Source: Rhizobium acidisoli (lineage in GTDB: Bacteria; Pseudomonadota; Alphaproteobacteria; Rhizobiales; Rhizobiaceae). Taken from it: DNA of 64,000 nucleotides. Made by a program: the position numbers and the translations under genes. This document shows, in pieces, positions 11,825 to 61,917 of the stretch. The notes beneath the pieces were generated by a model. That model saw only the letters and a program-made list of their open reading frames with translations. It ran no database searches and had not been told where the DNA came from. The stretch spans positions 3,476,001 through 3,540,000 of the forward strand of contig NZ_CP034998.1 of assembly GCF_002531755.2 (NCBI RefSeq), read 5' to 3'. The number at the start of each line of letters is the position of its first letter. Position 1 is the first letter of the stretch.

Positions 11825-11903
11825 TACAGTCTTCTGACTGTAAATACCCTCCTTGGGTGTTTCCTCCCTAGACTTAGCCGCGCTTACAAGCGCGGTTTTT
11901 TTT
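11825..11903 (+). ncRNA. mmgR: Trans-acting small RNA MmgR (alpha-r8 family)
   Basis: An orphan transcription unit of about 77-79 nt. It has a 5' hairpin TACAGTC-TTCT-GACTGTA (11825-11842), a second small hairpin ACCC-TCCTT-GGGT (11846-11858), the single-stranded motif TTTCCTCCCT (11860-11869), and a terminator CCGCGCT / AGCGCGG followed by eight Ts (11878-11903). From memory, Sinorhizobium meliloti MmgR is 77 nt, carries this pyrimidine-rich motif, and lies between the same kinds of neighbours (monophosphatase and N-formylglutamate amidohydrolase). MmgR limits polyhydroxybutyrate accumulation and binds Hfq. The exposed CCTCC could pair with ribosome sites of target mRNAs. Confidence 0.85.
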
Positions 11904-11946
11904 GCCGGTGAAGACCGGCCGGATAATATCGGTGAAATCACGCAGC

Positions 11947-28043: not shown

Positions 28044-28470
28044 CCAAAATCTTCCTTGCGCATGAACCGTCACCACAATAACCGGCACCAGCCTGACAGC
28101 AACCGCCCAAGCAGCCGCGAATCACACTCGATATTGGATACCCCTCGCAACCGTCCTCCGGCCCGCACCATGGGTCCGCTTTCAAGTCACGAACCGATCG
28201 ACGGCCACTTTTTATGGTGCCTGTCCGAAGCTTTGCCTGAAGCAAATCACTCCGTCTGCTGCAATTAGAATCCACTTTTTATCACAAAGGATTAGCGCCG
28301 AACGCTATCCTTCACCCATTCAGAGTATTGATGAAGAACGGCGACGCTATATGGTCGCGCTGCCGTGTCAAAACGTCGAATCCGCCCGAATTTCTATTCT
28401 GGGGGCGACTCTACGCGACAAAAACTCTATAAAAAGCTGGACTAAACTGGGAAGATCCATGGGAGGGGTC
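28044..28470. other. Divergent intergenic region, 427 bases
   Basis: Promoter region between the carbamoyltransferase gene (minus) and the TPR cyclase gene (plus). It contains AAGGAT(T)AGCG-CCGAA-CGCTATCCTT (28287-28312), a 10-bp stem with one bulged base. The rest is lower in GC than the coding sequence, and no small gene is convincing. Confidence 0.45.
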
Positions 28471-30339
28471 ATGGAACGACGACTGAGCGCTATTCTCGCT
28501 GCGGATGTCGTTGGCTATAGCCGACTGATGGGCATTGATGAGGCCGGCACGCTGCAGGCGCTGAACCGCCACCGCTGCGAACTGGTCGATATCAGGATTT
28601 CGGACTATAAGGGCCGGATCGTCAAACTCACCGGCGACGGCATCCTTGCCGAATTCCAGAGCGTGGTGAACGCGGTTGCCTGCGCCGCCGAAATCCAGCG
28701 CAGTATGGCCGCCCGCAACGAGAACGTGCCCAAGGACGAGCGCGTCGAATTCCGTATCGGCATCAATCTCGGCGATGTCGTGGTCGAGAACGGCGATATC
28801 TTCGGAGACGGCGTCAATCTTGCCGCCAGGCTTGAGCGTATCGCAGCGCCCGGCGGCATCGCCGTATCGGCCTCGGTGCGCGATCAGGTCGGCGCGCGCC
28901 TCAATCTCGGTTTCGAATTCATCGGCGAGCATATGCTGAAGAACATCCGGCAGCCGGTTCAGGTCTACACCGTCACCCTGGCGCCGCCCTCCTCGGCGAA
29001 ATTGGTCGCGCAGAACCGCAATACCTGCTTCATTGCCGTGCTGCCCTTTACCAATATGAGCGGCGATGCCGACCAGGACTATTTCTCCGACGGCATCACC
29101 GAAGACATCATCACCGATCTCTCCAAGATCTCCAGCCTGCACGTCGTGCCGCGCAATACGATTTTCACCTATAAGGGCATATCGGTGAAGGTGAAGCGGC
29201 TCGCTCAGGAACTTGGCGTGCGCTACGTGCTCGAGGGCAGTGTGCGCATCTTCGGCAATCGTGTGCGCATTTCCGGCCAGCTGATCGACACCGCCAATGG
29301 CGATCATCTCTGGGCCGAACGTTATGACCGCGACCTGACCGACATCTTCGCCATCCAGGACGAGATCACCCATGCGATCGTCGGCCAGTTGAAGGTGCGG
29401 CTGCTGCCGGAAGAGAAGAAGGCGATCGCCACTGAGCCGACCGCCAATGTCGAGGCCTATACCTATTATCTCCGGGGTCGTCAGCTCTCTCACACCTGGA
29501 CCAAATCCTATCTCCAGCTCGCAAGGCGCATGTTCTGCAAGGCGGTCGAGCTCGACCCCGACTATGCCCGCGCCTACGCCGGCATTGCCGATTGCGACGC
29601 GGCGATCCGCGATTGGGCACCTGACGACGTTCCGCTAAGGCGCATCCTCGAGATGAGCGCCCGCGCGCTTGCGCTTGATCCAGACCTTCCCGAAGCCCAC
29701 GCCTCCCACGGTCTTGCCCTGCATCAGAGCGGCTTTGATGACAGCGCAGCGGCGGCCTTCGAACGGGCCCTGTCGCTCGACCCGAACCTGTTCGAGGCGA
29801 ATTTCCATTATGCCCGCTTCTTCTTCATGCACGGCAACTTCGCTGAATCGGTTCAATATTTTACCCGCGCCGCCGCAATCCGCCCTGACGACTACGTCTC
29901 GCCGATCCATCTGATGTCCGCCTACCGCTCGCTCGGGCGTGTGTTGGATACGGAAAACTGGGCGCGTCTCGGTCTGCTGCGCGCCGAACGCGCGCTGAAC
30001 CTCAATCCGGAAAATTCCGGCCCGGCCCATCGCGGCGCGCTGGCGCTTGCGCATATGGGCGATACCAAGAGGGCACGCGACTGGGCCGCCCGCGCCATCG
30101 CTATCGATCCCGACGACATCGTCGCGCAGTACAATCTCGCCTGCGTCTATTCCGTCCTTGGTGATATCGACCAGGCGATCGACCTTCTTGAGAGGCTGCT
30201 GCCGCACAGCTCCGTCTATCATATCAAATGGTTCAACAATGATTCCGATCTCGACAACATCCGCGACGATCCCCGCTTCCGCAGGCTGCTGGCCGCCGCA
30301 ATGATGCAGCGCGAACGGATCGAAAGGACCGGGAGTTGA
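28471..30339 (+). CDS. Class III adenylate cyclase with TPR repeats
   Basis: A 622-residue soluble protein. The N-terminal cyclase homology domain (about 1-170) has metal aspartates in LAADVVGYSRLM (Asp12) and KLTGDG (Asp56), the ATP-selecting Lys52, and DGVNLAARLE with the transition-state Asn and Arg, so it should make cAMP. A middle TolB-like domain follows (about 190-320, FIAVLPFTNMSGDADQDYFSDGITEDI). The C-terminal half holds several TPR units, e.g. FCKAVELDPDYARAYAGIADC. This architecture is abundant in rhizobia. ATG 28471 is preceded by GGGAGGGG; ATG 28459 is an alternative. Its role is unknown and it is not in an obvious operon. Confidence 0.88.
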   Translation: MERRLSAILAADVVGYSRLMGIDEAGTLQALNRHRCELVDIRISDYKGRIVKLTGDGILAEFQSVVNAVACAAEIQRSMAARNENVPKDERVEFRIGINLGDVVVENGDIFGDGVNLAARLERIAAPGGIAVSASVRDQVGARLNLGFEFIGEHMLKNIRQPVQVYTVTLAPPSSAKLVAQNRNTCFIAVLPFTNMSGDADQDYFSDGITEDIITDLSKISSLHVVPRNTIFTYKGISVKVKRLAQELGVRYVLEGSVRIFGNRVRISGQLIDTANGDHLWAERYDRDLTDIFAIQDEITHAIVGQLKVRLLPEEKKAIATEPTANVEAYTYYLRGRQLSHTWTKSYLQLARRMFCKAVELDPDYARAYAGIADCDAAIRDWAPDDVPLRRILEMSARALALDPDLPEAHASHGLALHQSGFDDSAAAAFERALSLDPNLFEANFHYARFFFMHGNFAESVQYFTRAAAIRPDDYVSPIHLMSAYRSLGRVLDTENWARLGLLRAERALNLNPENSGPAHRGALALAHMGDTKRARDWAARAIAIDPDDIVAQYNLACVYSVLGDIDQAIDLLERLLPHSSVYHIKWFNNDSDLDNIRDDPRFRRLLAAAMMQRERIERTGS

Positions 30340-32583: not shown

Positions 32584-35500
32584 ATGTCGATCAAAGCCAG
32601 TATCTATCATCTGACGCATTACACTTATGACAAGCCGGTCCGCCTCGGCCCCCAGATCATCCGGCTGAAACCTGCCTCGCATTCGAAGACAAGGGTGCTC
32701 AGCCACTCGCTGAAGGTCACGCCTTCAAACCACTTCGTCAACCTGCAGCAGGATCCCTACGGCAACTACCTCGCCCGCTACGTTTTCCCGGACCCGGTGA
32801 CGGAGTTCAAGATCGAGGTCGATCTCGTCGCCGACATGACGGTCTATAATCCCTTCGACTTCTTCGTCGAGGAGGAGGCGACCAAATGGCCGTTCGGCTA
32901 TCCTGAAACGATCCAGGAAGACCTGTCGATCTATATGACGCCGGAACCGGCCGGCCCGCGGTTGAAGGCGCTGCTGCCGACGCTCGACTGGTCGCCTGGC
33001 CAGCCGACGGTGGATATGGTCGTCGGGTTGAATGCCCGTCTGCAGCGGCAGATCGGCTATGTCATCCGCATGGAAACCGGCGTGCAGACGCCGGAGGAGA
33101 CCCTCGAAAGCGCCAAGGGCTCCTGCCGCGACACCAGCTGGCTGCTCGTCCAGATCCTTCGCCATCTCGGCCTTGCCGCCCGCTTCGTCTCCGGCTACCT
33201 CATCCAGCTGACGCCGGATCTGAAGGCGCTCGACGGCCCCTCCGGCACCGAAGTCGATTTCACCGACCTGCATGCCTGGGCCGAGGTCTATCTGCCCGGC
33301 GCCGGCTGGGTCGGCCTCGACCCGACCTCCGGCCTGTTGACCGGCGAAAGCCACATCCCGCTGGCCGCCACCCCGCATTACCGCAACGCCGCCCCGATCT
33401 CCGGCGGTTATTTCGGCGAGGCCGAAACCGAATTCGCCTTCGACATGAAGGTGTCGCGTGTCGCCGAACATCCCCGCATCACCAAGCCCTTCTCCGATGA
33501 AAGCTGGGACGAGCTCAACGAACTCGGCGAAAAGGTCGACCGTGTCCTCGAGGCCGAGGACGTGCACCTGACAATGGGCGGCGAGCCGACCTTTGTTTCG
33601 ATCGATGATTTCCAGTCCGAGGAATGGAACACCGCCGCCGTCGGCCCGACCAAGCGCGAAAAGGCCGACAGCCTGATCCGCCGGCTGCAGGAACGCTTCG
33701 CCCCCGGCGGCTTCCTGCATTACGGCCAGGGCAAATGGTACCCGGGCGAAAGCCTGCCGCGCTGGACCTTCTCGCTCTACTGGCGCCGCGACGGCAAACC
33801 GGTCTGGCAGAACCTCGATCTGGTCGCCGCCGAAGGCAAGGATACCGGCGTCACTTCAGAGGATGCCGAGAAGCTGCTGACGGCGATCGCAAGAGAACTG
33901 GCGATCAAGCCCGACATGGTGCAGCCGGCCTATGAGGATCCGGCCGACTGGATCATCAAGGAAGGCAATCTTCCCGAAAACGTCGATCCGGCGAATTCGA
34001 AGCTGAAGGATCCGGAAGAACGCAACCGCATCGCCCGGGTCTTCGCCCGCGGCCTCACCGTCGCCACGGGTTACGTCCTCCCGGTTCAGGCATGGAACGC
34101 CAAGGCGGCCGAAAGCCGTGTCTGGATCAGCGAGAAATGGCAGAGCCGCCGCGGCCGAATCTTCCTCGTCCCGGGCGACAGCCCGATCGGCTACCGCCTG
34201 CCGCTCGGCACCCTGCCCTATATTCCCCCGGCGCGTTATCCCTATATCCACCCTGCCGATCCGACGATCCCGCGCGAACCGCTGCCCGATGTCTTCGTGC
34301 CGGCCGGTCGCGCCATGCCGGAAGCCTCTTTCCAGGCTGGCGAGAGCAATCGCAGCCGGATCGAACAGACGCTCGGTGAGATCGGCGGCGCCGTGCGCAG
34401 CGCCATGTCGGTCGAGCCGCGCGACGGTAGGCTCTGCGTCTTCATGCCGCCGGTCGAGCGCATCGAGGATTATCTCGAGCTGATCGCCGCGGCCGAAAAC
34501 GCCGCTGCCGAGCTTAAACTTCCCGTCCATATCGAGGGCTACCCGCCACCGCAGGACGAGCGTATCAACGTCATCCGCGTCGCCCCGGATCCCGGCGTCA
34601 TCGAGGTCAACATTCATCCGGCCTCGAACTGGAAGGAATGCGTCGACATCACCACGGCGGTCTATGAGGAGGCGCGGGCCACCCGGCTCGGCGCCGACAA
34701 GTTCATGATCGACGGCCGTCATACCGGCACCGGCGGCGGCAACCATGTCGTCGTCGGCAGCGCCAATCCGAACAACAGTCCCTTCCTGCGCCGTCCCGAT
34801 CTCTTGAAGAGCGTTGTCCTCCACTGGCAGCGCCACCCCTCGCTCTCCTACCTCTTCTCCGGCATGTTCATCGGCCCCACCAGCCAGGCGCCGCGCATCG
34901 ACGAGGCCCGCCATGACAGCCTCTATGAGCTGGAGATCGCCATGGCGCAGATCGCTGCCCCCGGCCGCGGTCAGCCGCCGCTGCCCTGGCTCGTCGACCG
35001 CCTGTTTCGCAACCTTTTGACCGATGTCACCGGCAACACCCACCGCGCCGAGATCTGCATCGACAAGTTGTTTTCGCCCGACGGCCCGACCGGAAGGCTC
35101 GGCCTCATCGAGTTCCGCGGCTTCGAGATGCCGCCGAACGCGCGCATGTCGCTTGCCCAGCAATTGCTGGTGCGCGCGCTGATCGCCCGCTTCTGGGTCA
35201 ACCCGGTCGACGGCAAGTTCGTCCGCTGGGGCACGACCCTGCACGACCGCTTCATGCTGCCGCATTTCGTCTGGGCCGACTTCCTCGACGTGCTGGCCGA
35301 CCTTCGCGAAAACGGCTTCGACGTCAGCCCGGAATGGTTCAAGGCCCAGCTCGAATTCCGCTTCCCCTTCTGCGGCGAAGTCGAATACGAGGGCTCGAAG
35401 CTCGAACTGCGCCAGGCGCTGGAGCCTTGGCACGTCATGGGCGAAGAGGGCGCGCCGGGCGGCACCGTCCGCTATGTCGACTCGTCCGTCGAGCGCCTTC

Positions 35501-35910
35501 AGGTGCGGCTCGAAACCAGCAATACGGCGCGTTATACCGTCACCTGCAATGGCCGCACCCTGCCGCTGACGCCGACCGGCACGGCCGGCGTGTCGGTCGC
35601 CGGCGTCCGTTACAAGGCCTGGCAGCCGGCCTCCGGCCTGCATCCTGTGCTGCCGATCAACACGCCTTTGACTTTTGACATTTATGATACATGGTCGAAG
35701 CGTTCGATCGGCGGCTGCATCTATCATGTTGCCCATCCGGGCGGCCGGACCTATGACACCTTCCCGGTCAACGGCAACGAGGCGGAAGCAAGGCGGCTCG
35801 CCCGCTTCGAGCCGTGGGGACATACGGCGGGCGGATACATCCCGCGTGCCGAGACGGGCTCGCTGGAATTCCCGCTGACGCTGGATCTGCGGCGGCCCGC
35901 TGGAATTTGA
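32584..35910 (+). CDS. Transglutaminase-like / DUF2126 amidoligase fusion protein
   Basis: An 1108-residue protein. The N-terminal bacterial transglutaminase-like cysteine peptidase domain (about 1-280) has a complete triad: Cys181 in [12 protein letters not shown], His230 in [12 protein letters not shown] and Asp246 in GLDPTSG. The remaining 800 residues are DUF2126, beginning [16 protein letters not shown], a family predicted to be a glutamine-synthetase-like COOH-NH2 ligase. First gene of a three-gene cluster with a permuted ATP-grasp protein and a second transglutaminase. No signal peptide, so cytoplasmic. A peptide or amide-bond making and breaking role is predicted; the product is unknown. 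Confidence 0.85.
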
Positions 35911-35940
35911 TGCCGGCGTTGGGGGATAGCTTGGGTTTTG

Positions 35941-38358
35941 ATGGGTAAGAGGCCGGCAACAGAGCGCAGGGAAGAGACAGAGAACCGCACCGGCAAACGT
36001 GCGGCCTTCGACTATGCGCCGCTTCCCGGCACCGCCGACGAGATGGTGGACAACAAAGGCAGGGTCCGCCCGGTCTGGCAGCATTTCCTCTCGCATCTGA
36101 GCGCAATGCCGGAAAAGGATCTTGCCGAGCGTTTTGCCCGCGCCGACCGCTACCTCAGAGACGCCGGCGTCTTCTACCGTGCCTATGGCAGCAAGGGCAC
36201 CGGCGAACGCGCCTGGCCGATCTCGCATATCCCGGTGCTGATCGACGAGCGCGAATGGCAGACGCTGTCGGCCGGCCTCGTCCAGCGCGCTGACCTGCTG
36301 GAAGCGATCGTCGCCGACATCTACGGCGACAACCGGCTGGTGGAGGAAGGCGTCCTGCCGCCGGCGCTGATGGCCGCCAATCCCGAATTCCAACGCCCGC
36401 TTGCCGGCATCCGGCCGGCCTCCGGCCATTATCTGCATTTCTGCGCCTTCGAGATCGGCCGCGGACCGGATGGCAATTGGTGGGTGCTAGCCGACAGGAC
36501 GCAGGCGCCGTCGGGCGCCGGTTTCGCGCTGGAAAGCCGCGTCGCGACCACCCGGGCGTTCTCGGATATCTATGCCGAAACCCCGGTCCACCGCCTCGCC
36601 TCGTTCTTCGGCGGCTTCCGCGACGCGCTGCAGGGGATGAAACATTCCGGCGACGACCGCATCGCCGTGCTGACGCCGGGCCCGGCCAACGAGACCTATT
36701 ACGAACACGCCTACATCGCCCGCTATCTCGGCTTCATGCTGCTCGAGGGTGAGGATCTCACCGTCGTCAAGGGCCGCGTCATGGTGCGCACCGTCGCCGG
36801 CCTGAAGCCGATCGGCGTTCTCTGGCGCCGTCTCGATTCGGCCTTTGCCGACCCGCTCGAGCTGAACCAGAATTCGCATATCGGCACCCCCGGCCTCGTC
36901 GAAGCGCTGCGCGCCGAAAGCGTCACCATCGTCAATGCGCTCGGAACCGGCGTTCTCGAGACCCGGGCGCTGCTGGCTTTCATGCCGACCATCTGCCGCC
37001 GCCTGCTGGGGCAGGATCTGCAACTGCCCTCGATCGCCACCTGGTGGTGCGGCCAGGAAGACGAACGCGAGCACGTCGCCAAGAATATCGAGAAGATGGT
37101 GATCGGCCCGGCCTATTCCCGCGCCCCCTTCTTCGACGACGACGGCGAATCCGTGCTCGGCTCGTCGCTGCGGGCGACCGCCAAGGATTCCATCACCGAC
37201 TGGCTGAGTTCGGACGGCCCGAAACTGGTGGGACAGGAGGTCGTCACGCTGTCGACGACGCCCGCCTGGGTCGACGGCAAGCTGGTGCCGCGGCCGATGT
37301 CGCTGCGCGTCTTCGCCGCCCGCACGGCGAACGGCTGGCAGATCATGCCCGGCGGTTTTGCCCGCATCGGCTCCGGCGCCGATGTCGCCGCGATCGCCAT
37401 GCAGTCGGGCGGAGCGGCCGCCGATGTCTGGATCGTCAGCGACAAGCCGGTCGAGCGCCACACTCTGCTGCCGGCCGAAGGCAGCTTTACCCGCAACATG
37501 CCGGGCAGCCTGCCGAGCCGGGCGGCCGACAATCTGTTCTGGCTCGGCCGCTACATCGAGCGCGCCGAAGGGGCGCTGCGCATCCTGCGCGCCTGGCATG
37601 CGCGTTACGCCGAAGCCGCCGATCCGAGCCAGCCGCTGCTCGCCGACGTCTCCGCCTATCTCTCAGCCGTCGATATCGACACCGCCGAACCCGTGCCGGA
37701 AACGCTGCTGCGCAACATCGACAGCGCCGTTTATTCGGCGAGCAATATTCGCGACCGTTTTTCGCCGGATGGCTGGCTGGCGCTCAACGATCTCGCCAAG
37801 ACCGCCCGCCGCTTCCATGTCACCGTCGCCGCCGGCGACGACGCCAGCCACGCGATGACGATCCTGCTGCGCAAGCTTGCCGGCTTTGCCGGCCTCGTGC
37901 ACGAGAACATGTACCGCTTTATGGGCTGGCGCTTCCTCTCACTCGGCCGCTATATCGAGCGCGGCCTGCACATGACGCGGCTGCTCGGCCATATGTCCGG
38001 CCCGGAAGCGCCCGACGGCGCGCTCGACATGCTGCTCGAAATCGGCGACAGCGTCATGACCCACCGCCGCCGCTACAACGTCAATACGGCGCGGCTGACC
38101 GTCACCGACCTGCTGGCGCTCGATCCCCTCAACCCCCGCTCGGTCCTCTTCCAGGTTAACGAGATCCATCACGAGGTCGAGCAACTGCCGAACGCCCTGA
38201 TCAACGGACAGATGTCGCCCTTCTACCGCGAGGCGATGCGGCTCCACTCGGGCCTGGCGGTGATGACGCCGGAGGGCATGGGGGCCGAGGTCTATCAGCG
38301 CCTCGAACGCGAATTGGAGCAGCTTTCCGATCTGCTCGCCCAGACCTATCTCGGGTGA
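35941..38358 (+). CDS. Circularly permuted ATP-grasp / alpha-E fusion protein
   Basis: An 805-residue cytoplasmic protein. Residues of about 60-470 form the circularly permuted ATP-grasp ligase (DUF404/DUF407 type): IYGDNRLVEEGVLPP, HFCAFEIGRGPDGNWWVLADRTQAPSGAGFALE, and NALGTGVLETRALLAFMP. From about 505 the all-helical alpha-E domain (DUF403) starts with SLPSRAADNLFWLGRYIERAEGALR and has a second HxxRYxER-type segment (GWRFLSLGRYIERGLHMTRLL). These are separate genes in many genomes and are fused here. ATG 35941 follows a TTG codon; the first 40 residues are poorly conserved. Likely forms amide bonds with ATP. Confidence 0.88.
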   Translation: MGKRPATERREETENRTGKRAAFDYAPLPGTADEMVDNKGRVRPVWQHFLSHLSAMPEKDLAERFARADRYLRDAGVFYRAYGSKGTGERAWPISHIPVLIDEREWQTLSAGLVQRADLLEAIVADIYGDNRLVEEGVLPPALMAANPEFQRPLAGIRPASGHYLHFCAFEIGRGPDGNWWVLADRTQAPSGAGFALESRVATTRAFSDIYAETPVHRLASFFGGFRDALQGMKHSGDDRIAVLTPGPANETYYEHAYIARYLGFMLLEGEDLTVVKGRVMVRTVAGLKPIGVLWRRLDSAFADPLELNQNSHIGTPGLVEALRAESVTIVNALGTGVLETRALLAFMPTICRRLLGQDLQLPSIATWWCGQEDEREHVAKNIEKMVIGPAYSRAPFFDDDGESVLGSSLRATAKDSITDWLSSDGPKLVGQEVVTLSTTPAWVDGKLVPRPMSLRVFAARTANGWQIMPGGFARIGSGADVAAIAMQSGGAAADVWIVSDKPVERHTLLPAEGSFTRNMPGSLPSRAADNLFWLGRYIERAEGALRILRAWHARYAEAADPSQPLLADVSAYLSAVDIDTAEPVPETLLRNIDSAVYSASNIRDRFSPDGWLALNDLAKTARRFHVTVAAGDDASHAMTILLRKLAGFAGLVHENMYRFMGWRFLSLGRYIERGLHMTRLLGHMSGPEAPDGALDMLLEIGDSVMTHRRRYNVNTARLTVTDLLALDPLNPRSVLFQVNEIHHEVEQLPNALINGQMSPFYREAMRLHSGLAVMTPEGMGAEVYQRLERELEQLSDLLAQTYLG

Positions 38359-38363
38359 CGGCG

Positions 38364-39242
38364 ATGCTTTACGATCTTTCGCTGCGCATGGGTTACAGCT
38401 ACGACGTGCCGGCCTCCGGCGCCCGCCACATCATGCGCCTGATGCCGCTGTCGCTGACCAACCGGCAGCGCCTGGTCGCCGGCTCGATCACCATTTCGCC
38501 GACGCCGGACGAGCAGTCGCATTTCGTCGATTTCTTCGATCATCCCGCCACCGCCTTCATGCTGCGCGCGCCGCACGAGACGCTCGACATTCGCATGCAG
38601 GCCCGCGTGCAGGTGGAAAGCCAGCCGATCGCCGCCGATTTTTCGCCGCTGCTCGCCGACCTGCCGGAGGAGTTGTCAGGCGTCTGGTCGCTGGCGCCGG
38701 ATTCGCCGCACCACTTTCTCGGCGACAGCCCGCGCCTGACCCAGGCGCGCGGGATCAGCGACTTTGCCCGAAGCTGCGCCATGCCTGATCTGACGGCGAT
38801 GCAGATCGCCTACGCGATCTGTGCCCGCATCTACAAGGATTTCACCTACGACGCCGACGCGACGACGGTGGACACGACGCCGCTTGAGGCATTCAAGCTT
38901 AAGTGCGGCGTCTGCCAGGATTTCACCCACATCATGATCCTGGCGCTCCGAAGCCTCGGCATTCCGGCCGGCTATGTCTCGGGTTTCCTGCGCACCATCC
39001 CGCCGCCCGGCAAGGAACGCCTCGAAGGGGCGGATGCCATGCATGCCTGGGTGCGGATCTGGTGCGGCGAGACGACCGGCTGGATCGAACTCGACCCGAC
39101 CAACAACATACCCGCCGGCACCGACCACATCGTCGTTGCCTACGGCCGCGACTATTCCGACGTCGTTCCCGTCATCGGCGTATTGAAGAGCTATGGCGGC
39201 CAGCGCGCCGTCCAGGCGGTCGATGTGATCCCGCTGAAATAA
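38364..39242 (+). CDS. Transglutaminase-like cysteine peptidase
   Basis: A 292-residue protein. The N-terminal beta domain (Bact_transglu_N type, LRMGYSYDVPASGARHIMRLMPLS) is followed by the transglutaminase core with Cys184 in KCGVCQDFTHIMI, His227 in DAMHAWVRIW and Asp244 in IELDPTNN. It is expected to hydrolyse or transfer amide bonds. ATG 38364 is used; a GTG at 38355 overlaps the upstream stop as GTGA and is equally possible, so the gene is translationally coupled to the ATP-grasp/alpha-E gene. It is a paralogue of the N-terminal domain of the cluster's first protein. Confidence 0.9.
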   Translation: MLYDLSLRMGYSYDVPASGARHIMRLMPLSLTNRQRLVAGSITISPTPDEQSHFVDFFDHPATAFMLRAPHETLDIRMQARVQVESQPIAADFSPLLADLPEELSGVWSLAPDSPHHFLGDSPRLTQARGISDFARSCAMPDLTAMQIAYAICARIYKDFTYDADATTVDTTPLEAFKLKCGVCQDFTHIMILALRSLGIPAGYVSGFLRTIPPPGKERLEGADAMHAWVRIWCGETTGWIELDPTNNIPAGTDHIVVAYGRDYSDVVPVIGVLKSYGGQRAVQAVDVIPLK

Positions 39243-39352
39243 TCCCAAAACTGGAAAAATCCGCCGGTTCGTTAAAATTCTATTGACGCTGTAAGGCAGG
39301 CGTAAAGAAGCAGCGTGCGTAATGTCACCCACAGGGTCTATTTCGGGTGAAC

Positions 39353-40555
39353 ATGATGAGCACCTCCTTTTTGCATCCCTGCCTGCGTCGCATGTTGAGC
39401 GATCGAGGCGGTAATTTCGGCATAGTGACGGCGATTATGGCGCCCGTCCTTCTCGGCGCCGCCGGCTTGGCGATCGATTATTCGAATATGGCGCTGTCAC
39501 AGCGCCAACTCCAGGAATCAACGGATTCTGCAGCACTCGCGGCGGCGACCGCACTTGCGAGCGGCAAGGTCGCCGACGAGGCGGCCGCAAAGACCTTGGC
39601 GAAGGATTTTGTCGTCGGACAAATGGCAAATTATGCCGGCACGGCATCAGCCAGCGCAATCAGGAACGCCACGAATGTGGACATCACCACGTCCACCTCC
39701 TCGACCAGCAAGAGCTACAGCGTCACAGTCGCGACCTCATATCGCCTTGGCCTGACACCATTCATGAATCTTTTAGGCCACTCTACGATTGACATCTCCA
39801 CAACCAGTTCGACCACGAGCGGCACCAGCCAGACACGGAGCGCGCTATCGATGGAACTTGTCCTCGACCAGTCGGGGTCCATGGGCTACGACACCAATAC
39901 ATGCGCCCAATACAAAAAGAATGGCACCACCTGCAAAACCTACGTCGTCAAGATCGACGCGCTGAAACAGGCATCTGCGTCACTCTTCGATGCGCTCGAT
40001 AAGGCCGATCCGCAACATACCCTCGTACGCACAGGCGTCATCTCGTACAGTAACGGACTATTGCGTGATTGGACCAACAAGGTCACCAGCGTTAGCGCTA
40101 TGGACTGGGGAACAACCAAATCCCGCGACTACGTAACAACGCTCTCGCCAGACGGCGGCACAGACGCCACTGAACCGATGCAACTGGCTGACGACACGAT
40201 CAAAAAGAACGCGAACAGCACCGACGCTGAAAGCGTCGCACATCAAAAAAAGGGCAATTCCAAGGTCGACAGGTTCATTATACTCATGACCGATGGCGAA
40301 ATGACCAGCAACAGCAGCACTTGGAACAAGGACAAGGATCAAAGCGTCCGCGACAAATGCGATGCCGCCAAGACAGACGGAATTACCCTTTTCACCGTGG
40401 CTTTCATGGCGCCGGACAAAGGCAAGAGTCTTCTCCAATACTGCGCCTCGCCGGGCGGCAACTACTATGAAGCTGAAACCATGGAGAAATTGGTGGCCGA
40501 CTTCGAAAGCATCGCCCAAACGGCAACCAAGGCCGCGACGCTGCTGACCAACTGA
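39353..40555 (+). CDS. TadG-like protein with von Willebrand A domain
   Basis: A 400-residue protein. The N-terminus has the TadE/TadG-type membrane anchor (SDRGGNFGIVTAIMAPVLLGAAGLAIDYSNM, about 17-46), then RQLQESTDSAALAAATALA. A von Willebrand factor A domain follows, with the metal-ion site DQSGSMG (Asp172, Ser174, Ser176) and ILMTDGEMT. Such proteins belong to Flp/tad pilus clusters or act alone as surface adhesins. No other tad genes are in this window. Codon and base use are less GC-biased than in neighbours. ATG 39353, 39356 or GTG 39347 could be the start. Ended by a very strong terminator. Confidence 0.85.
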   Translation: MMSTSFLHPCLRRMLSDRGGNFGIVTAIMAPVLLGAAGLAIDYSNMALSQRQLQESTDSAALAAATALASGKVADEAAAKTLAKDFVVGQMANYAGTASASAIRNATNVDITTSTSSTSKSYSVTVATSYRLGLTPFMNLLGHSTIDISTTSSTTSGTSQTRSALSMELVLDQSGSMGYDTNTCAQYKKNGTTCKTYVVKIDALKQASASLFDALDKADPQHTLVRTGVISYSNGLLRDWTNKVTSVSAMDWGTTKSRDYVTTLSPDGGTDATEPMQLADDTIKKNANSTDAESVAHQKKGNSKVDRFIILMTDGEMTSNSSTWNKDKDQSVRDKCDAAKTDGITLFTVAFMAPDKGKSLLQYCASPGGNYYEAETMEKLVADFESIAQTATKAATLLTN

Positions 40556-40580
40556 AGTCCCACAACAAGGTGTGCAAACG

Positions 40581-40614
40581 AAAAGCCGCGCCGGAACAAA
40601 CCGGCGCGGCTTTT
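40581..40614. terminator. Strong bidirectional intrinsic terminator
   Basis: AAAAGCCGCGCCGG-AACAAA-CCGGCGCGGCTTTT, a perfect 14-bp stem with a 6-base loop, 25 bases after the TadG-like stop. The T-run is part of the stem on both strands. Confidence 0.92.
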
Positions 40615-40782
40615 CGTTATCGCTATCCCACCCATCTGATCGGGAAAAGCGATTGAAATCAACCCCCTTGAGCCCGGTGAATATGAAGGTTTCGCAAATT
40701 TTTCGTTTGTCCAAATCCCTTGTTGCAAGTGCTTCCTAACGATGCATAAACTGTCGCTGAGACAAGCGACAAATCGATTAGA

Positions 40783-40800
40783 TCAGGCTTAATAGCCTGA
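40783..40800. promoter_or_regulatory. Inverted repeat upstream of the glycogen operon
   Basis: TCAGGCT-TAAT-AGCCTGA, 7-base arms with a 4-base spacer, ending 29 bases before the glgP start. It could be an operator or a hairpin in the leader. Confidence 0.4.
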
Positions 40801-40829
40801 AACCAAATTAAAATTGGCGAGATCTGACC

Positions 40830-43292
40830 ATGAATACCGTTTCCAAGCCAGTTATTCCCTCCCCCGCCCCGCGCAGCTCAAAGCCGGAAATTCTCGCCGA
40901 AGAAATTATCGAACGCCTGACCTACCGCATCGGCAAGGATGCCAAGGTGGCAAAGCCGCATGACTGGCTGACGGCGACGATCCTGGTGGTGCGCGACCGC
41001 ATCATCGACAGATGGATGGCCTCTACCCGCGAGGTTTATGCGACCGGCGCCAAGCGCGTCTATTATCTTTCCCTCGAATTCCTGATCGGCCGCCTGATGC
41101 GCGATGCCGTCTCGAATCTCGGCCTGATGGAGGAGGTGCGCGATGCACTCACCTCGCTCGGCGTCGACGTCAACGTCATCGCCGGCCTGGAGCCGGATGC
41201 CGCCCTCGGCAATGGCGGCCTTGGCCGCCTGGCGGCCTGTTTCATGGAAAGCATGGCGACGGTCGACGTGCCCGCCTATGGCTACGGCATCCGCTATGTG
41301 CACGGCCTCTTCCGCCAGCAGCTGGCCGACGGCTGGCAGGTGGAGCTGCCGGAAAACTGGCTCGCCCACGGCAATCCCTGGGAGTTCGAGCGCCGCGAGA
41401 GCGCCTATGAAATCGGCTTCGGCGGCGCCGTCGAATTCATCACAACCCATGACGACCAACCGCGCTACGTTTGGAAACCGGCCGAGCGCGTCATCGCCGC
41501 CGCCTTCGACACGCCGGCCGTCGGCTGGCGCGGCAAGCGCGTCAACACCCTGCGCCTCTGGTCGGCGCAGCCGATCGATCCGATCCTGCTCGATGCTTTC
41601 AACGCCGGCGACCACATCGGAGCGTTGCGCGAAAGCAACAAGGCCGAAAGCCTGACCCGGGTTCTCTATCCCGCCGACGCGACCCCGGCCGGCCAGGAAC
41701 TGCGCCTGCGCCAGGAGTTCTTCTTCTCGTCGGCCTCGCTGCAGGACATCCTGCGCCGCCATCTGCAGCAATATGACGATTTCACCTCGCTGCCGGACAA
41801 GGTGGCGATCCAGCTGAACGACACCCATCCAGCCGTCTCGGTGGCCGAACTGGTGCGTCTGCTCTGCGACGTCCACGGGATGGATTTCGACCAGGCCTGG
41901 GAAATCACCCGCCATACTTTCTCCTACACCAACCACACGCTTCTGCCGGAAGCACTGGAAAGCTGGGCGGTACCGCTGTTCGAGCGTCTGCTGCCGCGCC
42001 ACATGCAGATCATCTATGCGATCAACGCCAAGATTCTGATCGACGCGCGCAAGGGCAAGAATTTCTCCGATGGGGAAATCCGCTCGATTTCGCTGATCGA
42101 TGAAAGCGGCGACCGCCGCGTGCGCATGGGCAACCTTGCTTTCGTTGGCTCGCATTCGATCAACGGTGTTTCCGCCCTGCACACCGACCTGATGAAGGTC
42201 ACGGTCTTTGCCGACCTGCACAAGCTCTATCCCGACCGCATCAACAACAAGACCAACGGCATCACGCCGCGCCGCTGGCTGCAGCAGTGCAATCCCGGTC
42301 TCACCGGCCTGATCCGCGAGGCGATCGGCGACGAATTCCTCGACGACGCCGAGAAACTGCGCCCGCTCGAGGCGTATGCTTCCGATCCGAGCTTCCAGCA
42401 GAAGTTCGCAGCGGTGAAACGCGCCAACAAGGTGGCGCTCTCCAACCTGGTCGCCAGCCGCATGGGCGTGAAGCTCGATCCGTCGGCGATGTTCGACATC
42501 CAGATCAAGCGCATTCACGAATACAAGCGCCAGCTTTTGAACATCATCGAGGCCGTCGCACTCTACGACCAGATCCGCTCGCATCCCGAGCTCGACTGGG
42601 TGCCGCGCGTCAAACTGTTCGCCGGCAAGGCGGCGCCGAGTTACTACAACGCCAAACTGATCATCAAACTGATCAACGACGTCGCCCGCACGATCAACAA
42701 TGATCCATCGGTGCGCGGCCTGCTGAAGGTCGTCTTCGTGCCGAATTACAATGTCTCGCTCGCCGAAGTCATGGTGCCCGCCGCCGACCTCTCCGAACAG
42801 ATCTCGACCGCCGGCATGGAAGCATCCGGTACCGGCAACATGAAGTTCGGCCTCAACGGTGCGCTGACCATCGGCACGCTTGACGGCGCCAATGTCGAGA
42901 TGCGCGACAATGTCGGCGAAGACAACATCGTCATCTTCGGCCTCAAGGCCGACGAGGTCTCCAAGGTCCGCAGCGATGGCCACAATCCCCGCGCCATCAT
43001 CGAGGGATCGCGCGAACTCGCCCAGGCGCTCGCCGCCATCGGCTCCGGCGTCTTTTCGCCCGATGACCGCAACCGTTACACCTCGCTGATCGACGGCATC
43101 TATTCGCACGACTGGTTCATGGTCGCGGCCGACTTCGACGCCTACGCCCAGGCCCAGCGCGAAGTCGATCAGATCTGGACCAATCAGTCCGACTGGTACA
43201 CCAAGACGATCAACAACACGGCGCGGATGGGCTGGTTCTCGTCCGACCGCACGATCAGGCAATATGCAGACGAAATCTGGAGAGCCGGATGA
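40830..43292 (+). CDS. glgP: Glycogen/starch phosphorylase
   Basis: An 820-residue PLP-dependent GT35 enzyme that releases glucose 1-phosphate from glycogen. It has the full family length and motifs: EPDAALGNGGLGRLAACFMES near 124-144, NDTHPAVSVAELVRL, KRIHEYKRQLLN, and the PLP lysine in STAGMEASGTGNMKFGLNGAL near residue 670. ATG 40830 is preceded by GCGAGATCTGACC. First gene of a six-gene operon; its stop overlaps the glgB start (ATGA). Placing degradation first with synthesis genes behind it suggests cycling control of glycogen rather than synthesis alone. Confidence 0.96.
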   Translation: MNTVSKPVIPSPAPRSSKPEILAEEIIERLTYRIGKDAKVAKPHDWLTATILVVRDRIIDRWMASTREVYATGAKRVYYLSLEFLIGRLMRDAVSNLGLMEEVRDALTSLGVDVNVIAGLEPDAALGNGGLGRLAACFMESMATVDVPAYGYGIRYVHGLFRQQLADGWQVELPENWLAHGNPWEFERRESAYEIGFGGAVEFITTHDDQPRYVWKPAERVIAAAFDTPAVGWRGKRVNTLRLWSAQPIDPILLDAFNAGDHIGALRESNKAESLTRVLYPADATPAGQELRLRQEFFFSSASLQDILRRHLQQYDDFTSLPDKVAIQLNDTHPAVSVAELVRLLCDVHGMDFDQAWEITRHTFSYTNHTLLPEALESWAVPLFERLLPRHMQIIYAINAKILIDARKGKNFSDGEIRSISLIDESGDRRVRMGNLAFVGSHSINGVSALHTDLMKVTVFADLHKLYPDRINNKTNGITPRRWLQQCNPGLTGLIREAIGDEFLDDAEKLRPLEAYASDPSFQQKFAAVKRANKVALSNLVASRMGVKLDPSAMFDIQIKRIHEYKRQLLNIIEAVALYDQIRSHPELDWVPRVKLFAGKAAPSYYNAKLIIKLINDVARTINNDPSVRGLLKVVFVPNYNVSLAEVMVPAADLSEQISTAGMEASGTGNMKFGLNGALTIGTLDGANVEMRDNVGEDNIVIFGLKADEVSKVRSDGHNPRAIIEGSRELAQALAAIGSGVFSPDDRNRYTSLIDGIYSHDWFMVAADFDAYAQAQREVDQIWTNQSDWYTKTINNTARMGWFSSDRTIRQYADEIWRAG

Positions 43293-45496
43293 AAACGCCG
43301 AAAAACGTCCCTGAAGTAAAGCTTTCCTGGGAAATTTCGGCAGATGAAATCGCGGCGATCCTTGCCGGCTCGCATTCCAATCCCTTTGCCGTCCTAGGGG
43401 TGCACCAGGCAGGCGACGCCTTCGTCGCCCGCTGTTTCATCCCGGGCGCGGAGGAAGTCACCACCATGACGCTCGACGGCAGCGTCATCGGCGAACTGAA
43501 GCAACTCCATGGCGACGGCTTTTTCGCCGGCCCGGTTTCCCTGACCAAGCTCCAGCCGGTGCGTTACCGCGCCCGGCGAGGCGATGCGGAATGGGCCGTC
43601 ACCGACCCCTACAGCTTCGGTCCGGTGCTCGGGCCGATGGACGATTATTTCGCCCGCCAGGGCTCGCATCTGCGCCTGTTCGACAAGATGGGCGCCCACC
43701 TCATCAAGCATGACGGCGCCCAGGGCATCCACTTCGCCGTCTGGGCCCCGAATGCGCAGCGCGTTTCCGTGGTCGGCGATTTCAACAATTGGGACGGACG
43801 CCGCCACGTCATGCGCTTCCGCTCCGATAGCGGCATCTGGGAGATCTTTGCCCCTGACGTGCCGATCGGCGTTGCCTACAAATTCGAGATCCGCGGTCAG
43901 GATGGCGTGCTGCTGCCGCTGAAGGCCGATCCCTTCGCCCGCCGCAGCGAGCTCCGGCCAAAAACCGCCTCGATCGCCGCCGCCGATCTGGAACAGGAGT
44001 GGGAAGACGAAGCCCATCTGAAGCACTGGCGCGAAGCCGACAAACGCCGCCAGCCGATCTCGATCTACGAGGTGCATGCCGCCTCATGGCGGCGCCGGGA
44101 CGATGGCACGATGCTGTCCTGGGACGAGCTCGCCTCCAGCCTCATCCCCTATTGCGCCGACATGGGCTTCACCCATATCGAGTTCCTGCCGATCACCGAA
44201 TACCCCTATGACCCCTCCTGGGGCTACCAGACGACAGGCCTCTACGCACCGACCGCCCGGTTCGGCGAGCCGGAAGGTTTCGCCCGTTTCGTCAACGGCT
44301 GCCACAAGGTCGGCATCGGCGTCATCCTCGACTGGGTACCGGCGCATTTCCCGACCGACGAACACGGCCTCGGCTGGTTCGACGGCACGGCGCTCTACGA
44401 GCATGAAGATCCGCGCAAGGGCTTCCACCCCGACTGGAGCACGGCGATCTATAATTTCGGCCGGACCGAGGTCGTTTCCTACCTCGTCAACAACGCGCTT
44501 TACTGGGCCGAGAAATTCCATCTCGACGGTTTGCGCGTCGACGCCGTCGCCTCGATGCTCTACCTCGATTATTCCCGCAAGCACGGCGAATGGATCCCGA
44601 ACGAATATGGCGGCAACGAGAACCTCGAAGCCGTCCGCTTCCTGCAGGATCTCAACACCCGCATCTACGGCAATCATTCCAACGTCATGACGATCGCCGA
44701 GGAATCGACCTCCTGGCCGAAGGTCTCCCAGCCCGTGCATGAAGGTGGCCTCGGCTTCGGCTTCAAGTGGAACATGGGCTTCATGCACGACACGCTGAGC
44801 TACATGAGCCGCGATCCGATATACCGCGGACACCATCACAACGAACTCACCTTCGGCCTGCTCTACGCCTATTCGGAAAATTTCGTCCTGCCGCTCTCGC
44901 ATGACGAGGTCGTCCATGGCAAAGGCTCGCTGATCGCCAAGATGCCCGGCGACGACTGGCAGAAATTTGCCAATCTGCGCGCCTACTACGCCTATATGTG
45001 GGGCTATCCCGGCAAGAAGCTGTTGTTCATGGGCCAGGAATTCGCCCAGTGGAGCGAGTGGAGCGAGGCGAAATCGCTCGACTGGAACTTGCTTCAGTAT
45101 CGCATGCATGAGGGCATACGGCGCCTGGTGCGCGACCTCAACTTCACCTATCGCAGCAAGCCGGCGCTGCACGAGCGTGACTGCGAGGGCGAAGGTTTTG
45201 AATGGCTGGTCGCCGACGACCACCAGAATTCCGTCTTTGCCTGGCTGCGCAAGGCGCCGGGCCAGAAGCCGGTCGCCGTCATCACCAATTTCACCCCCGT
45301 CTATCGCGAGAACTATACGATCCGCCTGCCGTCCGCAGGCCGCTGGCGGGAAATCCTGAACACCGATGCCGACATCTACGGCGGCAGCGGCAAGGGCAAT
45401 GGCGGGCGCGTGCAGGCCGTCGATGCCGGCGGCGACATCACCTGCTCGATCACCTTGCCGCCCTTGGCGACAATCATGCTTGAACCTGAAAATTAG
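43289..45496 (+). CDS. glgB: 1,4-alpha-glucan branching enzyme
   Basis: A 735-residue GH13 enzyme that makes alpha-1,6 branches in glycogen. It has two N-terminal carbohydrate-binding/Ig-like domains (the second with [23 protein letters not shown]) and a catalytic barrel with nucleophile Asp in [16 protein letters not shown], acid/base Glu in [11 protein letters not shown] and third Asp in [14 protein letters not shown]-terminal beta domain follows. Start ATG 43289 overlaps the glgP stop by four bases; glgC follows after 19 bases. Confidence 0.96.
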
Positions 45497-45515
45497 TGAC
45501 TGGTGGGAGGAGAAA

Positions 45516-46778
45516 ATGGTAGAAAAGCGTGTTCAGCCACTTGCCCGCGATGCAATGGCTTATGTTCTGGCCGGCGGCAGGGGGAGCCGCCTCAAGGAAC
45601 TCACCGACCGGCGTGCCAAGCCTGCCGTCTATTTCGGCGGCAAGGCCCGCATCATCGATTTCGCCCTGTCGAACGCCCTGAACTCCGGCATCCGCCGCAT
45701 CGGCGTTGCCACGCAATACAAGGCGCATTCGCTGATCCGCCACATGCAGCGCGGCTGGAACTTCTTCCGCCCTGAGCGCAACGAGAGCTTCGACATCCTG
45801 CCGGCCAGCCAGCGCGTCTCGGAAACGCAGTGGTATGAAGGCACCGCCGACGCCGTCTATCAGAACATCGACATCATCGAGGATTACGGTGTCGAATACA
45901 TGGTCATTCTCGCCGGCGACCACGTCTACAAGATGGACTATGAGTGGATGCTGCAGCAGCACGTCGATTCCGGCGCCGACGTCACCATCGGCTGCCTGGA
46001 AGTGCCGCGCATGGAAGCGGTGGGCTTCGGCGTCATGCATGTGAACGAGAAGGACGAGATCATCGCCTTCGTCGAGAAGCCGGCCGATCCGCCGCCCATT
46101 CCCGACAAGCCGGATTTCGCGCTCGCCTCGATGGGCATCTACGTCTTCCACACCAAGTTCCTGCTCGATGCGCTGCGCCGCGACGCTGCCGACCCGAACT
46201 CCAGCCGCGACTTCGGCAAGGACATCATCCCCTATATCGTCAAGAACGGTAAGGCGGTCGCCCACCGCTTCGCCAAGTCCTGCGTCCGCTCCGATTTCGA
46301 GCACGAGCCCTACTGGCGTGACGTCGGCACGATCGATGCCTATTGGCAGGCCAATATCGACCTGACGGCGATCGTTCCGGAGCTCGATATCTATGACAAG
46401 TCCTGGCCGATCTGGACCTATGCGGAGATCACCCCGCCGGCGAAATTCGTCCATGACGACGAGGATCGCCGCGGCTCGGCCACCTCCTCCGTTGTTTCCG
46501 GCGATTGCATCATCTCCGGCGCCAGCCTCAACAACAGCCTGCTCTTTACCGGCGTCAGGGCCAACTCCTTCTCCAAACTGGAAGGCGCGGTCATCCTGCC
46601 GAACGTCAAGATCGGCCGGCGGGCGCAGCTCAAGAATGTGGTGATCGACCATGGTGTCGTCATTCCGGAAGGCCTTGTTGTCGGCGAGGATCCCAAACTC
46701 GACGCCAAGCGCTTCCGGCGGACGGAAAGCGGCATCTGCCTGATCACCCAACCGATGATCGACAAGCTGGATATCTGA
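45516..46778 (+). CDS. glgC: Glucose-1-phosphate adenylyltransferase
   Basis: A 420-residue ADP-glucose pyrophosphorylase that makes ADP-glucose, the committed and allosterically controlled step of glycogen synthesis. It has the nucleotidyltransferase motif [23 protein letters not shown] (near 19-41), the substrate region FVEKP, and the C-terminal left-handed beta-helix ([18 protein letters not shown]...). ATG 45516 has GGGAGGAG six bases upstream. The first residues lie in a longer open frame, but family start and ribosome site agree. Enzymes of this alphaproteobacterial class are usually activated by fructose 6-phosphate and pyruvate. Confidence 0.96.
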
Positions 46779-46781
46779 CTT

Positions 46782-48224
46782 ATGAAAGTTCTTTCGGTTT
46801 CGTCCGAAGTCTTCCCTTTGATCAAGACAGGGGGCCTGGCCGATGTGTCAGGCGCCCTGCCCATTGCTCTTAAAGCCTTCGGGGTCGAAACCAAGACCCT
46901 TCTGCCCGGCTATCCCGCCGTCATGAAGGTCATTCGCGACCCCGTCGTCAGGCTCGAATTCCCTGACCTGCTCGGCGAGCCGGCTGCTGTGCTTGAGGTC
47001 CAGCATGAGGGCCTCGATCTGCTCATCCTCGATGCGCCGGCCTATTACGACAGGCCGGGCGGCCCCTATGTCGATCCGCTCGGCAAGGACTATCCCGATA
47101 ATTGGCGGCGTTTCGCCGCGCTGTCGCTCGCCGCCTCCGAGATCGCCGCCGGCCTGCTGCCCGGCTGGCGGCCGGATCTCGTCCACACCCACGACTGGCA
47201 GGCGGCGCTGACCTCGGTCTATATGCGCTACTATCCGACGCCGGAACTGCCGAGCGTGCTGACCATCCACAACATCGCTTTCCAAGGCCAGTTCGGCCCC
47301 GAGATCTTTCCCGGCCTGCGCCTGCCCGCCCATGCCTTCGCCACCGACAGCATCGAATATTACGGCACGGTCGGCTACCTCAAGGGCGGCCTGCAGACCG
47401 CCCACGCGATCACCACGGTCAGCCCGACCTATGCCGACGAGATCCTGACCCCGGAATTCGGCATGGGGCTCGAGGGCGTCATCGCCAGCCACATCGACAA
47501 TCTGCACGGCATCGTCAACGGCATCGACACTGATATCTGGAACCCGGCAACCGATCCCGTCGTCCACACCCATTATGGCCCGACGACCCTGAAGAACCGC
47601 GAGGAGAACCGCCGTTCGATCGCCGAATTCTTCCATCTCGACAATGACGACGCCCCGATCTTCTGCGTCATCAGCCGACTCACCTGGCAGAAGGGCATGG
47701 ATATCGTCGCCAACATCGCCGACGAAATCGTCGCCATGGGCGGCAAGCTCGTCGTGCTCGGCTCCGGCGAAGCCGCACTTGAAGGCGCATTGCTTGCCTC
47801 CGCCAGCCGCCATCCCGGCCGCATCGGCGTGTCGATCGGCTATAACGAGCCGATGTCGCACCTGATGCAGGCCGGCTGCGATGCCATCATCATCCCGTCG
47901 CGTTTCGAACCCTGCGGCCTGACCCAGCTTTACGGCCTGCGTTACGGCTGCGTGCCGATCGTCGCCCGCACCGGCGGGCTGAACGACACGGTGATCGACG
48001 CCAATCACGCCGCACTTGCGGCGAAAGTGGCAACCGGCATACAATTCTCACCCGTGACGGAAACGGGCATGCTACAGGCAATCCGCCGTGCGATGCATTT
48101 TTACGCGGACCGAAAACTCTGGACCCAATTGCAAAAGCAAGGCATGAAATCGGATGTCTCCTGGGAGAAGAGCGCCGAACGCTACGCTGCCCTCTATTCA
48201 AGCCTCGTCTCGAAAGGCATGTGA
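46782..48224 (+). CDS. glgA: Glycogen synthase (ADP-glucose)
   Basis: A 480-residue GT5 glycosyltransferase that adds glucose from ADP-glucose to glycogen chains. The ADP-glucose site [13 protein letters not shown] is at 15-27, HTHDWQAAL near 129, and the donor-site motif [18 protein letters not shown] near 370. It begins three bases after the glgC stop, so it is coupled to it. Family length and motifs are complete. Confidence 0.96.
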
Positions 48225-49862
<1,638 letters not shown>

Positions 49863-49874
49863 TCCGGGGGGAAC

Positions 49875-61658: not shown

Positions 61659-61917
61659 GATCTCACCGGTGTCCCTCCACGGCCCGCATAAACGGCCCGC
61701 ACCTGCCGGCAGGCTACGCCGCTTTCGGTCCAAACGCCATTCGCACATGCCGTTCGGATCCTCTCTTTCGATGGGCCGCACTACGCTTCCGGTTTAAGCC
61801 GGGCTTTTGCCTGGATGACAGGGGTGACAGGCAGCTTCGATCTTGCCGGGCAGCCGGCGAAATGTTCTTGTAGCGATCGAAAATCGAATGCCTTCCAGAG
61901 AAGAACGAGGGGTCGCC

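Follow-up and report, generated by a model that had tools for sequence, protein, structure and literature searches.

A transglutaminase-DUF2126 cluster of Rhizobium acidisoli as a possible accessory module of a core amide-bond system

We analysed a stretch of 64,000 nucleotides of Rhizobium acidisoli DNA (the window; C1:3476001-3540000 in a 7.5-Mb genome). On its plus strand, at 32584-39242, three genes stand in a row. Gene A (32584-35910, 1108 amino acids) combines transglutaminase-like domains with DUF2126, gene B (35938-38358) fuses a circularly permuted ATP-grasp domain to an Alpha-E domain, and gene C (38355-39242, GTG start, 295 amino acids) encodes a stand-alone transglutaminase-like protein. 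An earlier note on this DNA had placed the genes in this way and had taken them for a cluster that makes and cuts amide bonds. The cluster is real, is of the predicted kind and recurs across classes. The same genome carries a second set, at C1:3009699-3013165, in which ATP-grasp, Alpha-E and transglutaminase are separate genes and the key ATP-grasp residues are intact (the split set, or core). We give an even chance to the view that the cluster is an accessory module on this core amide-bond system, with the ATP-grasp domain of gene B as a non-catalytic partner. This view is suggested because DUF2126 occurs only together with the split-type core in our genome sample, and because an intact core is present elsewhere in the genome.

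Two kinds of ATP-grasp protein

The ATP-grasp domain of gene B belongs to CP_ATPgrasp_2 (PF14403; 462 bits, 2e-138) and aligns by hhalign with the split type at 4e-105; the split-type protein of this genome (L004, which provides the split numbering used below) matches PDB 3n6x at 7e-187. Four stretches of the split proteins do not vary at their key places: VLEDN, VVKx(n)GGYG, HVDLRP and NSSQGGGxKD. They resemble features of other ATP-grasp enzymes, namely the ExN and the aspartate that bind Mg, and the ATP lysine together with a glycine loop. In gene B, Ala185-Asp-Arg187 (36490-36498, plus strand) stands where the split paralogues invariably have Glu-Asp-Asn, Gly390 (37105-37107, plus strand) where VVKx(n)GGYG has its lysine (Lys456 of L004), and Ser455 (37300-37302, plus strand) where HVDLRP has its aspartate (Asp516 of L004).

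These replacements are typical of the fused form. Residues were counted at all loci, each protein being labelled by the better matching of two query proteins, which gave 126 fused proteins (including 16 from the genus of the window and 19 Pseudomonas-like near-copies) and 43 split ones. E248, N250, K456 and D516 are all kept in 43/43 split proteins. The fused proteins keep none of the four in 63 cases and one in the other 63, but never more. At the position of N250 there is arginine in 117/126 and asparagine in none, at that of E248 alanine, serine or glycine in 117/126 and glutamate in one, and at that of D516 aspartate in 0/126. Lysine is still found at the position of K456 in 62/126.

The two kinds are also separated by descent. 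A tree was built with the window, L004, L005-L044 and 28 loci chosen from 80 of named genomes (the best 80 of 593 stretches), leaving out matches shorter than 1100 nt. Among its 89 ATP-grasp rows, 63 fused and 26 split sequences are parted by a single branch with a support of 100/100, and the fusion to Alpha-E thus looks like one event. The fused clade has conserved stretches of its own, DRTQAPSG and SMQ-GG. Its ATP-grasp part is under purifying selection, with ratios of nonsynonymous to synonymous substitution rates (dN/dS) of 0.019-0.190 over eight same-genus comparisons. The ATP-grasp domain of gene B seems, from sequence, to lack the residues for using ATP and yet to be maintained for a role outside the usual ATP-grasp chemistry. 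In view of the purifying selection, it would be repurposed rather than decaying.

The Alpha-E part of gene B (37510-38352, plus strand, 201 bits) keeps both of its ER pairs, E541-R542 and E674-R675. The two pairs are retained in at least 0.98 of the proteins of either kind (124 fused, 47 split).

The earlier note had counted two ATP-dependent ligases in the cluster. This count is not supported, since the fused ATP-grasp has lost three features that never vary among its split paralogues, the ExN, the lysine and the aspartate. As an alternative, DUF2126 and the fused ATP-grasp could both be working ligases, the latter with altered residues. In favour of this, many charged or polar residues are kept in the fused clade: R117, D127, R175, R201, E256, D273, D305, N333, R457, R476 and D496 are each present in 0.96-1.00 of the 126 proteins, and the clade-specific DRTQAPSG motif, the purifying selection and the lysine in 62/126 would all fit an active enzyme. 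However, ExN and the aspartate are lost, in the window together with the lysine and the glycine loop. Moreover, in 759 of 780 pairs drawn from 40 loci with both forms, the fused proteins are less alike than the split ones (mean identities of 47% and 63%, respectively). We therefore regard a second working ligase as unlikely.

The transglutaminase-like proteins and DUF2126

All three proteins score well beyond the curated Pfam cut-offs. The transglutaminase-like part of gene A (plus strand; Bact_transglu_N and Transglut_core, residues 6-83 and 143-247) has the triad C181/H230/D246, which is unchanged in 57/57 aligned proteins, the window copy counted. Gene C, also with Bact_transglu_N and Transglut_core, has the triad C187/H230/D247, invariant in 21/21 proteins, one of them a paralogue from elsewhere in the same genome; the codons were checked. 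The earlier note was right about intact triads. Its choice of Cys184 in gene C has to be corrected: in the motif KCGVCQD this residue is not conserved and lies three residues ahead of the conserved Cys187.

The DUF2126 part of gene A (PF09899, 1330 bits) spans 33418-35892 on the plus strand (residues 279-1103). GTGGGNH (715-721), E674, N676, R845 and E848 are invariant across the 57 sequences. It is the sole ligase candidate left inside the cluster. Following its Pfam description, we take DUF2126 to be a putative glutamine synthetase (GS)-like, ATP-dependent amide ligase. Sequence searches of the PDB with gene A matched the transglutaminase part alone at E < 0.001, and PDB profile searches found a good relative for neither DUF2126 nor Alpha-E. 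The closest database relative of gene A, 96% identical, is labelled Rhizobium leguminosarum. Compared with two other loci (L049 and L059), gene A looks like a mosaic: its transglutaminase part is 97% and its DUF2126 part 84-85% alike, and the synonymous divergence (dS) is higher in the DUF2126 part (0.60-0.70 versus 0.34-0.41), as if this part had recombined.

Gene B starts either at the listed TTG (35938, 806 amino acids) or at an ATG one codon on (35941, 805 amino acids). The gap to gene A is 27 nt when counted from the listed start, and the stop of gene B overlaps the start of gene C by 4 nt (38355-38358, plus strand), which bears out the coupling of the last two genes noticed earlier. Export signals were not seen by eye in the three proteins, which were judged without any signal-peptide program. 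An identity as a defence system was rejected, since the three proteins matched none of the PADLOC anti-phage families.

If the cluster works as an accessory module, the split ligase of the core would activate a carboxylate and start a product. Gene B, which would have lost the ability to activate, may hold the same class of substrate or scaffold other proteins. The DUF2126 part of gene A would then be the ATP-dependent ligase of the module, adding a unit, and the two Cys-His-Asp enzymes of transglutaminase fold could act, by cleavage or transfer, on amide bonds of what the core ligase has started.

Distribution, partners and promoters

Among 61 relatives, DUF2126 is found in 42: in 37/37 of the same genus (the genome of the window included) and in 5/24 others. 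In a phylum-wide draw of 348 genomes, it is present in 112. The surroundings of DUF2126 were compared at 15 loci of the genus, where the entire set is present in 15/15, and at 40 loci of other genera. Of these outside loci, 35/40 have a fused-type ATP-grasp, Alpha-E and a further transglutaminase in the fetched stretch, mostly in the same order and sometimes on the other strand. In four more (L008, L010, L022 and L044) the transglutaminase-DUF2126 gene is alone in the fetched stretch, and one (L030) has only a split set; three of the four genomes have Alpha-E in a frame of 814-915 amino acids outside that stretch. In the 80 named loci (the best of 593 stretches), Alpha-E is found in the flank of 75, and a single open ATP-grasp-Alpha-E frame follows directly after DUF2126 in 63, a rule that short contigs and other orientations fail. 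Since the set recurs in this way across same-genus, outside and named loci, the fusion is the rule for the module and no peculiarity of the window.

The dependence on the core is seen in the 348 genomes. Alpha-E is present in 201 of them, and a profile of the split-type ATP-grasp matches in the same 201, with a best E-value of at most 3.2e-193 in each (in calibration, split proteins scored 708-887 bits and fused ones 180-434 bits). All 112 genomes with DUF2126 have both Alpha-E and the split type, and DUF2126 occurs in 0/147 genomes without the split type. The core is found alone, without DUF2126, in 89 genomes. At least two copies of Alpha-E are present in 106/112 genomes with DUF2126 versus 11/236 without.

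Several points weigh against our interpretation. The co-occurrence counts ignore kinship among the genomes. Six of the 112 DUF2126 genomes have a single copy of Alpha-E, and in the two examined (G096 with locus L030, G347 with locus L022) this copy scores as split type, so that gene B is perhaps not required in every case. The link from the lost residues to ATP and Mg binding is made by conservation and by motif resemblance. Since half of the fused proteins keep the lysine, it is doubtful that every one of them has wholly lost nucleotide binding. An hhalign comparison of the split type with Escherichia coli Gss gave no alignment, in a test without power, and one of DUF2126 with GCS2 or Amidoligase_2 gave no match, although the positive control failed likewise. 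Finally, the ATP-grasp protein of the Yersinia bercovieri Anbu operon releases orthophosphate from ATP, which is in favour of our view, but according to the available part of the report (PMC6376114) this activity was not stimulated by glutamine, glutamate or Anbu, and ligation and hydrolysis were not distinguished.

A zinc peptidase is a recurrent partner of the module. A protein with a zinc ribbon and Peptidase_Mx (PF10005, PF15887; HExxH by eye) is encoded near 7/40 loci and 10 of the best 80. Genome-wide, Peptidase_Mx was matched in 73/348 genomes, of which 71 were kept (G242 and G289, with weak fragments only, were dropped; G000 and G231, with broken-up matches, were retained). It is present in 57/112 genomes with DUF2126 versus 14/236 without (p 3e-21), 69 of the 71 have Alpha-E, and in at least 18 genomes it lies less than 6 kb from DUF2126, in several arrangements. 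The genome of the window has its own copy in pieces and in different frames (G000:C1:664292-665032, L060-L062), which looks frameshifted by a sequencing error or a real loss; three genomes of the same genus (G016, G028 and G265) have one near full-length match each. Peptidase_Mx and the Ntn hydrolase Anbu might act as further processing enzymes in the bacteria that have them.

Anbu raises the alternative of protein tagging or degradation, in which a peptide tag added by the ligases would be taken off by Anbu or other peptidases, or the tagged proteins degraded by them. In its favour, 136 of the 139 Anbu genomes (of 348) have Alpha-E, and the fetched stretch contains both DUF2126 and Anbu at 4/40 loci and 2 of the best 80. 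Nevertheless, Anbu is absent from the genome of the window and from the three other same-genus genomes of the 348-genome draw, the only PF00227 match in the former being, by eye, HslV beside HslU. Among genomes with Alpha-E, Anbu also shows no preference for DUF2126, being about equally common with it (72/112) and without it (64/89; p 0.29). Tagging or degradation is thus very unlikely as the role of the cluster.

The earlier note had proposed to look for a conserved small substrate gene beside the cluster. The search covered stop-to-stop frames of at least 30 amino acids at 40 loci and open reading frames of at least 40 amino acids within 3 kb of the core at 120 loci. By eye, the largest families (25 and 14, respectively) contained no short one that was shared beyond a single Comamonadaceae synteny group or beyond frames lying antisense to longer genes, in a search that would miss substrate genes of minimal length, strong divergence or remote position.

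Another alternative is scavenging of amines or amides under nitrogen starvation, in which a GS-like ligase would join an amine to glutamate or a similar compound and amidases of transglutaminase fold would release it, in analogy to the PuuA/PuuD pathways. Promoters lend it some plausibility. A first scan (400 bp, 10/11 positions) found sigma-54-like sites before 4/14 split and 1/56 transglutaminase-DUF2126 starts, versus 0.2 and 0.4 expected. The criterion was then set to at least 9 of 11 positions within 250 bp upstream of the first core gene, and the 80 named loci served as an independent test. In other classes such sites precede 12/34 first core genes versus 2/116 neighbouring genes (p 2e-7), and in the best 80 named loci 72/137 first genes versus 27/554 controls (p 7e-37), many being Pseudomonas near-copies. 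Strong sites also precede the module in the alphaproteobacterium Reyranella (L142, 10/11) and in an Akkermansiaceae metagenome-assembled genome (MAG; L141, 11/11). The sites of the other classes agree with Burkholderia cenocepacia H111, where I35_5080-83 are among the common NtrC and sigma-54 targets (available part of PMC5491218). In wild-type Pseudomonas putida, PP_2686-2688 rise 11- to 15-fold when nitrogen is limiting (available part of PMC7801951), excerpts of another study give PP2685-2687 as up (PMC3325844), and marine metagenomes link the system to urea domains (available part of PMC3597751).

There are also points against scavenging. In the P. putida rpoN mutant, PP_2686-2688 rise 14- to 20-fold, and PP_2685 changes only 1.1-fold in the wild type (available part of PMC7801951), which does not fit sigma-54 dependence there. 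The element resembling -24/-12 is found before 0/16 same-genus first genes, the window included (controls 2/109), the sites are not enriched in other alphaproteobacteria (1/21 versus 3/178 in controls), and none precedes the split set of the genome. The listed families of recurrent neighbours showed no catabolic gene. For the cluster of the window, nitrogen control at the promoter level was tested and set aside, as the sigma-54-like site is absent, and the promoter and nitrogen data from other bacteria cannot be carried over to the window. Scavenging, overall, appears quite unlikely.

Returning to the accessory module, a bolder version of it is a tentative and rather doubtful proposal. Gene B would found a class of repurposed ATP-grasp proteins, which gave up the ATP site after the fusion and in which a new pocket (DRTQAPSG) recognises the product of the active paralogue. 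Transglutaminase-DUF2126 would extend this product, and transglutaminase, Peptidase_Mx and Anbu would trim it, in one common, often nitrogen-responsive cycle that makes and cuts an amide-linked molecule.

Of the phylum genomes sampled, roughly one in three (112/348) has the module and 58% (201/348) the core. That one supposed ligase lacks residues present in a paralogue that looks active changes the choice of the protein to assay and makes a case for deleting both loci together. For the hunt for a product, the link to Peptidase_Mx offers a further enzyme, and the promoters of other classes offer growth conditions.

Downstream of the cluster (39347-51854), the window contains a Tad/VWA gene and then glycogen-type genes (glgP and glgB by eye), with families NTP-transferase, starch synthase, phosphoglucomutase and CBM48 amylase. 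A perfect 18-nt inverted repeat with a 6-nt loop (40577-40618) follows the VWA gene and is perhaps a terminator. In 14/15 loci of the genus, as in two genera close by (L006, L007), the VWA gene and glgP adjoin the cluster, and an upstream pair of two-component regulators is kept in about half of the same-genus loci. A functional tie to either was rejected, as neither neighbour is present in more distant loci. Proteins with adenylate/guanylate cyclase domains are encoded at 28351-30339, 59490-61781 and 61843-63507 (partner domains TPR, CHASE2 and Tll0287-like). An Rfam scan found only tRNA, mmgR (suhB family; a small RNA at 11839-11910) and terC in the window, every one outside the cluster.

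Comparison with known systems

Titles and the beginnings of abstracts in the open-licence literature contained no paper on an inactive ATP-grasp protein of this kind or on the Peptidase_Mx link, and a product of the system was not found in this searchable literature. Nevertheless, the word "undescribed", which the earlier note had used for the pathway, is too strong. In B. cenocepacia, I35_5080-5083 (BCAM1233-1236) encode DUF404/407, DUF403, a transglutaminase and a large transglutaminase in a row, much as in the window (available part of PMC5491218). That set differs in having separate ATP-grasp and Alpha-E genes and in its NtrC/sigma-54 control; the name DUF2126 is not used in that paper. 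In Burkholderia sp. TSV86 (L115), the split set and the fused module are adjacent.

Other systems combine a ligase with a peptidase or amidase in a similar general idea. Gss (glutathionylspermidine synthetase/amidase) pairs a ligase with a cysteine amidase, but its families are GSP_synth and CHAP, and its profile does not align with the split ATP-grasp. The Pseudomonas rlo/rim loci (RloABC, RimBK) likewise pair ATP-grasp with a peptidase. They differ in having a RimK-like ATP-grasp, a retropepsin-like protease and a membrane pseudo-transglutaminase (available part of PMC12239564); a retropepsin domain was not matched by Pfam in the three cluster genes.

The closest relative in terms of domain families is the Anbu operon, which consists of a circularly permuted ATP-grasp, Alpha-E, transglutaminase and Anbu. 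Judging from the operon, its ATP-grasp protein in Y. bercovieri is presumably of the split kind, and its ATP result should not be transferred to gene B. The earlier note had seen the fusion as a case for a physical complex. The fusion itself is real, but pull-downs with Y. bercovieri Anbu as bait gave no stable complex (available part of PMC6376114). The split set of R. acidisoli is the same kind of set as the Anbu operon, minus Anbu. The set in the window shares the domain families, but adds DUF2126, has ATP-grasp and Alpha-E fused, has an ATP-grasp without the key residues, and comes without Anbu.

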